This document shows positions 44,081 through 46,523 of a DNA stretch of 64,000 nt, one piece after another. Within the stretch, counting starts at the first letter, position 1; each line of letters begins with the position of its first letter. The translations under genes were made by a program, and so were the position numbers. This stretch comes from Komagataeibacter xylinus (lineage in GTDB: Bacteria > Pseudomonadota > Alphaproteobacteria > Acetobacterales > Acetobacteraceae): positions 1 to 64,000 of the forward strand of contig NZ_QQBI01000013.1 in assembly GCF_004302915.1 (NCBI RefSeq), in the 5' to 3' direction. The notes under the pieces were generated by a model. The model saw only the letters and a program-made list of their open reading frames with translations, made no database searches and had not been told where the DNA came from.

Positions 44081-44965
44081 ATGGCCCTTCCCGTCCGTCG
44101 CACCGGCGTGCTGTGCGCCCTGCTCATGCTGGCAGGGTGCGGCTTTTCCCCGATGTACAAGACGACGGGAAGCCATATCGGCGCCGATGGCAAACCCACC
44201 ACCGGCAACGTGCTGGCCGAGCTCAGGCAGGTTTATGTCGCGCGCATCAACGAGCGCTACGGCCAGTTGCTGCGCCAGGCCCTGCAGCAGGACATGGGGG
44301 GCGCCGGGCCGGAAAACCCGACCGGTTACGTGCTGCGCATCCGCACCTACCTGATGAACGAGGCCGTGGACATCCACGCCGACAACACATCGGGCCGCAC
44401 GCGCACCACCGCCTTCGCCCACTGGACGCTGGAGACCGTGGCCAACAGCCCGGTCATGCTGGCGGGGGGCGATGCCTCGGTGGTGGATGGCGTGAACAAC
44501 AATTACGAGCAGTATTTCGCCCAGACCCTGAACCTTGAGGGCGTGCGCGCCCGCGTGGCCAAGAACCTGGCCGAGCAGATCACGCAGGAAGTGGCCGTGT
44601 GGTTCCGCACCCATGCCAAACCCGCTGTCAGCGGCTCGGTGCGGGGGCAGAACCAGCCGCGCTACATCGACCCCAACGGCATCATCAACCCCAACAACCA
44701 GATGCCCGCCCAGCACCCCGCCGCCGATGGCCTGCCCACCATGGCCACCGGCCGCACCGATGCCCAGCTGAACGAGGAAAACAACGGCGGCATGACCATG
44801 CCCGATGAAAACGGCCCTATGGACAACACGCCGGACACCACCACCACCACCACCACCACCCAGACCCCCGCCACGTCCGGTCAGGGCAGCTATTCGCGGA
44901 GCCCGTCGACATCGGAGAACGATGACATGTCGGGCATCAGCATCGGGGGCAACGAGAACCAGTGA
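44081..44965 (+). CDS. lptE: LPS-assembly lipoprotein LptE, with extended Thr-rich C-terminus
   Basis: 294 residues. Lipobox LMLAGC (Cys20) directs it to the outer membrane, where LptE plugs the LptD barrel and helps deliver LPS. The family core GFSPMYKTTGSH through QEVAVWFRTHA spans about 21-180. The last ~110 residues are unusual: Asn/Pro/Gly/Met-rich with PDTTTTTTTTQTPATSG (encoded by a run of ACC triplets, 44839-44862). Typical LptE is shorter. Position between leuS and holA is the classic one, and the last four bases (ATGA-type overlap) couple it to holA. Confidence 0.88.
   Translation: MALPVRRTGVLCALLMLAGCGFSPMYKTTGSHIGADGKPTTGNVLAELRQVYVARINERYGQLLRQALQQDMGGAGPENPTGYVLRIRTYLMNEAVDIHADNTSGRTRTTAFAHWTLETVANSPVMLAGGDASVVDGVNNNYEQYFAQTLNLEGVRARVAKNLAEQITQEVAVWFRTHAKPAVSGSVRGQNQPRYIDPNGIINPNNQMPAQHPAADGLPTMATGRTDAQLNEENNGGMTMPDENGPMDNTPDTTTTTTTTQTPATSGQGSYSRSPSTSENDDMSGISIGGNENQ
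44839..44862 (+). repeat. ACC triplet repeat (poly-Thr codons)
   Basis: Eight ACC units encode consecutive threonines in the LptE tail. A trinucleotide tract can expand or contract without shifting frame, so the tail length could vary between strains. Reported as seen; variability is inference. Confidence 0.8.
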
Positions 44966-45981
44966 AGATCGACGCCCGCTCCGTCAACGCGACCCTGAAC
45001 GCGCCCGGCGCGCTGCGGGCCATCGTGCTGCATGGGGATGATGCCGGGCTGATCCGTGAACGGGCCACGACGGCGGCACGGGCCATCTGCCCCGACCTGA
45101 ACGACCCGTTTCGCGTGGCCATGCTGGGCCGCGAAGACCATGACCGGCTGGAGGAGGAAACCACCGCCCTGTCGCTGACCGGCGGGCGGCGCGTGATCTG
45201 GCTGCGTGAGGTGGGTGACAGCGTGCTGGCCGCCCTGCAGCGCTGCCTGGCGCAGGAATCCGACACGCTGGTCATCCTTGAGGCACCGGGTCTGGCCTCC
45301 CGCTCCAAACTGCGCGCCTTTGCCGAAAAGGACCGCCATTGCGGCGTAATCGGCTGCTACCCCGAGGAAGGCCGCGCGCTTGAAGGTGCGATCCGGCAGA
45401 TGCTAGCGGGGCATGACGTGGGCATTGACCCCGATGCGCTGGGCTGGATGGTTGAACGCGCGGGGCCGGACCGTGCCGCCACCCGCAGCGAAGTGGAAAA
45501 GCTGGCCCTGTTCGCCGGGGCTGGCGGCAGACTGGGGCTGGAGGATGTGCGCGCCTGCGTGGGCGATGCCGCTGGCGTATCGCTGGAGGATGCGGCTTTC
45601 GCCGCCATGGCGGGCGAGCGCGAAGCCGCCGATGCCGCCGCCGAGCGCGCGCTGGTGACCGATGGCAGCAGCCCGGTGGCGCTGGCGCGCGTGCTGCTAG
45701 GCCACATTCACCGCCTGCGCCGGGTGCGGCTGGCCATGGATGGCGGGATGGGCCGGGCAGAAGCCATGCGGCAGTTGCGGCCGCCGGTATTCTTCAAGCG
45801 CACGGACAGTTTCGGGCAGGCACTCAATGCCTGGTCGGCGGCCGCCCTGCTGCAGGCGGCACAGGACACGCAGGCGCTGGAACTGGCCTGCAAGCAGACC
45901 GGCAGCCCCGATATCGTGCTGGGACTGCGGCATGTGGCCCGCCTGTGCGGACTGGCGCAGAAGGCACGCAGGCGGCGTTAA
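44962..45981 (+). CDS. holA: DNA polymerase III subunit delta
   Basis: 339 residues, clamp-loader delta subunit that opens the beta clamp. Start residues KIDARSVNATLNAPGALR lead to the first domain with VLHGDDAGLIRERATTAAR (about 24-42); middle domain TLVILEAPGLASRSKLRAFA and the AAA+-like DRHCGVIGCY segment follow. The C-terminal collar domain contains LARVLLGHIHRLRRVRLAMDGG and PPVFFKRTDSFGQAL. GTG start at 44962 overlaps the lptE stop. Last gene before the intron-bearing tRNA. Confidence 0.93.
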   Translation: MKIDARSVNATLNAPGALRAIVLHGDDAGLIRERATTAARAICPDLNDPFRVAMLGREDHDRLEEETTALSLTGGRRVIWLREVGDSVLAALQRCLAQESDTLVILEAPGLASRSKLRAFAEKDRHCGVIGCYPEEGRALEGAIRQMLAGHDVGIDPDALGWMVERAGPDRAATRSEVEKLALFAGAGGRLGLEDVRACVGDAAGVSLEDAAFAAMAGEREAADAAAERALVTDGSSPVALARVLLGHIHRLRRVRLAMDGGMGRAEAMRQLRPPVFFKRTDSFGQALNAWSAAALLQAAQDTQALELACKQTGSPDIVLGLRHVARLCGLAQKARRRR

Positions 45982-46057: not shown

Positions 46058-46356
46058 GTCCGCGTAGCTCAGCCGGATAGAGCACAGGATTCCTGGTTTT
46101 CAAATTGGGCGCCATGACGGGAAACCCCATGGCGGATCTGCTCAAATTCGGGGAACGCTCTGGCGAAAGCCGTGCCAATCCCGAGCCAAGGCCGGCCCTG
46201 CCGGCAAGGTGTAGAGACTGGATGGGCAGCACCTGTAGGCCGCACGCGGCCCATGGTGAAGGGACAGTCCAGACCACGAACGCCATGACCATGGCGGCGG
46301 CGAAAGCCGAAGTGGTATGAATCCTGGGGCCGTGGGTTCGAATCCCGCCGCGGACA
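46058..46356 (+). tRNA. tRNA-Arg(CCU) gene interrupted by a group I intron
   Basis: The two exons, 46058-46094 and 46320-46356, join to a normal 74-base cloverleaf without CCA. The acceptor stem GTCCGCG/CGCGGAC pairs perfectly; the D arm is GCTC...GAGC; the anticodon stem CAGGA pairs with TCCTG around the loop TTCCTAA, anticodon CCT (46092-46094); the T arm is GTGGG-TTCGAAT-CCCGC with one T-G wobble; the discriminator is A. The anticodon reads AGG (Arg). A tRNA finder that disallows long introns would miss the gene. Confidence 0.93.
46095..46319 (+). ncRNA. Self-splicing group I intron (225 nt) within tRNA-Arg(CCU)
   Basis: Inserted directly after the anticodon. The 5' exon ends in U (46094) and the intron ends in G (46319), as group I introns require. 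The guide GGG (46107-46109) pairs with exon CCU, giving the U-G splice-site wobble, in a P1 hairpin closed by intron GGTT and AATT. Core helices by eye: P4 TCGGG (46148-46152) with CCCGA (46180-46184); P5 GGC-GAAA-GCC (46162-46171); P6 GCCGG/CCGGC; P7 GACTG (46216-46220) with CAGTC (46265-46269); P8 GGCCGC/GCGGCC; a P9 GAAA tetraloop near the 3' end. J6/7-P7 reads GGTGTAGAGACT, as in the well-known Azoarcus tRNA-Ile intron. No ORF, so it is not mobile on its own. Confidence 0.92.
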
Positions 46357-46523
46357 TACCTTCTTTTTCAGGAATGACCTCAAAGAGCAGGGAAAAGCTT
46401 TTTCAGGCCGCTTTTCCGTCCCCTTCCAGCAAGGATCGCCTCCCCAGGAAATTTCGGCCCTTTCAAACAATGGGCCGCGACAGCGCCGGGCTGGCCAGCC
46501 CGGCGGCACAGGTTTGGATGATA

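Follow-up and report, generated by a model that had tools for sequence, protein, structure and literature searches.

A small group I intron in the anticodon loop of the tRNA-Arg(CCU) gene of Komagataeibacter, of a kind already recorded for Acetobacteraceae

Group I introns in bacterial tRNA genes were reportedly described by Reinhold-Hurek and Shub in 1992, in tRNA-Arg(CCU) of Agrobacterium and tRNA-Ile(CAU) of Azoarcus, as small, ORF-less elements located in the anticodon loop. The intron analyzed here is like these two in its small size, the lack of an ORF, the position in the anticodon loop and a guide pairing with the anticodon, and it shares the host tRNA-Arg(CCU) with the Agrobacterium intron. 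Its P9 closes two hairpins (P9a and P9b) and is probably larger than the Azoarcus P9.

Alphaproteobacterial tRNAs are listed as hosts of group I introns in a review, which cites Reinhold-Hurek and Shub (1992), quoted here as cited there, for self-splicing tRNA introns (PMC4033280). The closest previous report is a footnote to table 1 of a 2015 genome paper, recording for Asaia bogorensis, Acetobacter pasteurianus, Gluconobacter oxydans, Komagataeibacter medellinensis and Gluconacetobacter diazotrophicus that one tRNA (Arg) is interrupted by a sequence with homology to a group I intron (PMC4596401). The footnote gives no anticodon, coordinates or structure; otherwise its intron does not differ substantively from ours and agrees with it in family, amino-acid identity of the tRNA and kind of intron. 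Because all 19 of 19 Komagataeibacter genomes examined share one insertion site, the two are very probably orthologous. The intron is real and was correctly interpreted in the initial annotation, and it is already known for Acetobacteraceae, since the footnote records a tRNA-Arg intron in five genera.

We read the locus, with a confidence close to certainty, as a group I intron of the type known from bacterial tRNAs. It is small, has no ORF, separates U36 from A37 in the one tRNA-Arg(CCU) gene that was detected, would be spliced by the guide and guanosine route and is inherited vertically. Judged by its resemblance to the Azoarcus intron, it is probably closest to subgroup IC3.

The split tRNA-Arg(CCU) gene and its detection

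The stretch of DNA analyzed comprises 64,000 nt (in the following called the window). The split gene and its upstream neighbor are arranged as follows.

44962..45981, + strand: holA, DNA polymerase III subunit delta, upstream neighbor of the split tRNA (TIGR01128, 154 bits)
46058..46094, + strand: 5′ exon of tRNA-Arg(CCU), with acceptor strand, D arm, 5′ half of the anticodon stem and U32, U33, C34, C35 and U36 (ARAGORN, joined-exon call)
46095..46319, + strand: group I intron, 225 nt, terminal G (omega-G) at 46319 (RF00028, ARAGORN, same boundaries in 19 of 19 Komagataeibacter genomes)
46320..46356, + strand: 3′ exon of tRNA-Arg(CCU), beginning at A37, with no encoded CCA after it (ARAGORN, joined-exon call)

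With introns allowed, ARAGORN called a tRNA-Arg(cct) with a 225-nt intron at this locus, inserted between the anticodon nucleotide U36 and A37, and it recognized the joined exons alone as a normal tRNA-Arg(CCU). In both searches, the mature tRNA is 74 nt long and forms a complete cloverleaf with the anticodon CCU once the intron is removed. The exons, splice points and intron length of the initial annotation were exact to the base, and its claim that removal of the intron leaves a complete tRNA was confirmed by the joined-exon call. Directly downstream, the window lacks an encoded CCA (46354-46360, ACATACC), a trait common to a Komagataeibacter subclade, unlike most relatives, in which CCA is encoded.

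The Rfam model RF00028 (Intron_gpI), searched with E-value thresholds, matched positions 46089-46297 over its full length (model positions 1-253) with 46.0 bits and an E-value of 1.3e-10, the sole group I match in the genome. The gathering score of this model is 50, so that the match, which the initial annotation had proposed to look for, stands by its E-value and lies 4 bits under the curators' threshold. This is why the intron is missed by default Rfam searches, and no match was reported when the window was scanned at gathering thresholds. Likewise, ARAGORN without the intron option found no tRNA in the window, and tRNAscan-SE 2.0 is, according to its paper, not designed for detecting group I introns (PMC8450103). 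The prediction that standard annotation would lose this gene was therefore borne out. Scans for promoters and terminators found nothing. The motif combining 5′ splice site and guide occurs once in the 64 kb, compared to 0.02 expected occurrences.

Anatomy, covariation and proposed splicing of the intron

The following elements were delineated by pairing in the window and in relatives.

46092..46109, + strand: P1, exon CCU with guide GGG (46107-46109), closed by GGUU/AAUU
46110..46134, + strand: P2 hairpin with GGGAAACCC tip; five pairs with both-sided changes
46138..46143, + strand: P3 5′ strand, partner 46224-46229; 100% paired in relatives
46147..46185, + strand: P4 (46147-46152 with 46180-46185), enclosing P5 and P5a
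46186..46209, + strand: P6 and P6a; closing pair of P6a with both-sided changes in 11 of 22 sequences
46216..46269, + strand: P7 (46216-46220 with 46265-46269), enclosing the P3 3′ strand and P8; P7 100% paired
46230..46258, + strand: P8 stem and tip; both-sided changes at several pairs
46274..46315, + strand: P9 (CCAC/GUGG), closing the two hairpins P9a (46281-46296) and P9b (46299-46308)

All helices, that is P1, P2, P3, P4, P5, P5a, P6, P6a, P7, P8, P9, P9a and P9b, form by standard pairs in the window. The P4-P6 and P3-P7-P8 core with its P3/P7 pseudoknot is present and is kept with covariation in 22 sequences. Within P1, a wobble pair between U46094 and G46107 marks the 5′ splice site, and by inspection a P10 is possible between UU of the guide (46105-46106) and AA of the 3′ exon. 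The exon CCU, the motif AUUGGG and the U-G splice-site pair are invariant across the 22 aligned sequences, as is the terminal G (G46319 in the window) among the relatives compared. The guide pairing and final G noted initially were thus found again, and the helices P4, P5, P6, P7, P8 and P9 drawn at that stage both pair in the window and covary in relatives; the same applies to P1, P2 and P3.

For the covariation analysis, 22 distinct relatives were aligned and 70 pairs were scored, with 96.2% of the cells paired. Sliding the 3′ partners lowered the pairing to 28-44%. The alignment had not been adjusted to the structure; the structure itself, however, was derived from the sequence of the window, and this favors the unslid version. 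Stronger evidence than the pairing percentage comes from both-sided changes, which were observed at 25 of the 70 pairs, versus a mean of 10.0 in shuffled alignments and 5-10 in slid structures. In P9a, five of six pairs showed such changes. The minimum-energy fold of the single sequence was modestly better than those of shuffled sequences (z -1.92), with a method restricted to nested pairs in which the pseudoknotted core is absent, as expected; the support from this fold is weak, and our reading does not draw on it.

By homology to self-splicing introns, from which the splicing chemistry is inferred, the intron very likely excises itself. Pairing of the guide GGG with the exon CCU in the precursor would position the U-G wobble at the 5′ splice site. 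P7 would bind a guanosine, which would attack after U36. The freed 5′ exon would in turn attack after the G that terminates the intron, and U36 would thereby become joined to A37. This ligation would yield the normal anticodon loop UUCCUAA.

Inheritance and alternative readings

The intron was found at the identical position with the same boundaries in all 19 Komagataeibacter genomes examined, the window included. An apparent absence from two Komagataeibacter genomes was rejected as a sensitivity artefact, as a DNA search found the intron in both. In 18 named relatives, the split tRNA lies 57-242 bases downstream of holA. Among the named genomes searched, those of K. xylinus, K. nataicola and K. 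melomenusus encode the HolA proteins nearest to that of the window (96-97% identity), which assigns the window to Komagataeibacter. Distances between introns follow those between holA sequences (Mantel r 0.91, P 0.0001, n=19). In a tree of 97 rows, a branch with 99/97 support separates 69 of the 70 tRNA-Arg introns from the tRNA-Leu, Thr and Lys introns; because of long branches and an unsettled bootstrap, only the separation of Arg from Leu is used. Uninterrupted tRNA-Arg(CCU) genes occur in several other Acetobacteraceae genera. The simplest reading of these data is one old insertion that was inherited vertically in Komagataeibacter, and the intron is probably near neutral.

Several other explanations were weighed against this reading. 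A merely chance resemblance of the locus to a split tRNA with a group I intron, which has the sub-threshold Rfam score and nothing else in its favor, is refuted by the E-value of 1.3e-10, the exact tRNA halves, the conserved boundaries and the covariation, and its probability is negligible. The central claim of the initial annotation, that the anticodon loop of tRNA-Arg(CCU) is interrupted by a group I intron, is upheld by the covariance model, the splice-site anatomy, the covariation and all 19 of the congeneric genomes, which share the insertion. A second alternative is a decayed gene that has lost splicing, with AGG read by wobble of tRNA-Arg(UCU). That tRNA exists, AGG is rare (4 of 125 arginine codons in the three genes upstream, leuS, the ORF following it, and holA) and the window tRNA has no encoded CCA, unlike most relatives. 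The missing CCA is, however, common to a subclade and could be added post-transcriptionally, and in 22 sequences the core pairs, the guide, the splice-site U-G and every stem of the tRNA have been preserved, with compensatory changes. A dead gene would lose these features, and we regard decay as highly improbable.

A recently acquired and still mobile intron, spreading via homing or reverse splicing, would fit the related introns in other tRNAs of Acetobacteraceae. Yet the insertion site is identical in all Komagataeibacter members examined, and no endonuclease is encoded: none of the short mechanical ORFs lying across the intron (71 aa on the + strand, 71-162 aa on the − strand) had a Pfam match, and there is no homing endonuclease. 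The initial statement that the intron has no ORF thus stands in substance, although not to the letter. Moreover, the tree and the distances follow the host, and the congruence with holA largely refutes recent mobility for Komagataeibacter, leaving it very improbable. The earlier suggestion that the intron depends on other means to move is unneeded, since by our data the intron has been passed on vertically at a single site and nothing shows mobility. Finally, splicing could be rate-limiting or dependent on conditions such as GTP and Mg2+, making the supply of tRNA-Arg(CCU) a translational throttle. Such a throttle, if true, would explain retention of the intron through the whole genus; we consider it very improbable.

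Reading of AGG, annotation and related introns

The vertically inherited intron interrupts what appears to be the sole tRNA-Arg(CCU) gene. No second tRNA-Arg(CCU) was present among the 45 tRNAs found by the tRNA model in this genome assembly, nor did a search by anticodon-arm pattern allowing three mismatches reveal one in this genome and six relatives, five of them congeneric; ARAGORN recognized no intact tRNA-Arg(CCU) in the pattern matches. The search for an intact copy elsewhere, suggested initially, thus came out negative by all three approaches. The tRNAs recovered from this assembly do not include tRNA-Ile(GAU) and tRNA-Ala(UGC), which commonly lie in rRNA operons, and contigs absent from it could carry an intact copy. 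The mature tRNA-Arg(CCU) should read AGG. ARAGORN also identified tRNA-Arg(UCU), (CCG) and (ACG) in the genome, of which tRNA-Arg(UCU) could read AGG by wobble. The earlier description of a single AGG-reading tRNA accordingly holds for tRNA-Arg(CCU) as the only one found, but not for the reading of AGG as such, and the consequence of a missing tRNA is softened by the presence of tRNA-Arg(UCU).

A rare-codon tRNA in the industrially used genus Komagataeibacter is very likely ribozyme-dependent, and neither tRNA nor Rfam scans detect it at default settings. Because these scans miss the locus, genome annotations may list tRNA-Arg(CCU) as missing or contain spurious short proteins. Apart from this point on annotation, little is added, as the intron is already recorded for Acetobacteraceae.

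A scan for core motifs matched 63 of 150 Acetobacteraceae genomes. In a sample taken across the class, 17 of 240 genomes were matched, three of these 17 being Acetobacteraceae themselves. The comparison suggests that tRNA introns are abundant in Acetobacteraceae. Introns in tRNA-Leu(UAA), found in this family at seven loci, have the same core motifs as the window intron. They differ in being inserted after U34 instead of U36, and the alphaproteobacterial tRNA-Leu introns form a part of the tree separate from the tRNA-Arg introns. Two genomes contain both Arg and Leu introns. An AT-rich intron-bearing tRNA-Leu(UAA) in one alphaproteobacterial assembly appears to be a contaminant of plastid or cyanobacterial origin.

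Introns of the same kind as that in tRNA-Arg(CCU) were detected after U36 of tRNA-Thr(GGU) in three Acetobacteraceae genomes (G129, G153 and G066), with the guide GCC matching GGU. In two Acetobacteraceae genomes of one genus (G153 and G066), a class-II tRNA with a long variable arm holds a group I intron. Titles and abstracts of the papers retrieved for allo-tRNAs and for tRNA-Thr introns contained no mention of these Thr and class-II introns. The anticodon loops of the class-II tRNAs are odd (CCUAGUG or CCCUAGUG), and ARAGORN called one of them Ser and the other Leu(UAG); they might be allo-tRNAs or suppressor-like tRNAs. In another alphaproteobacterium, a group I intron is located after U34 of tRNA-Lys(UUU), with the 5′ exon ending in GACUU, identical to that of tRNA-Leu(UAA).
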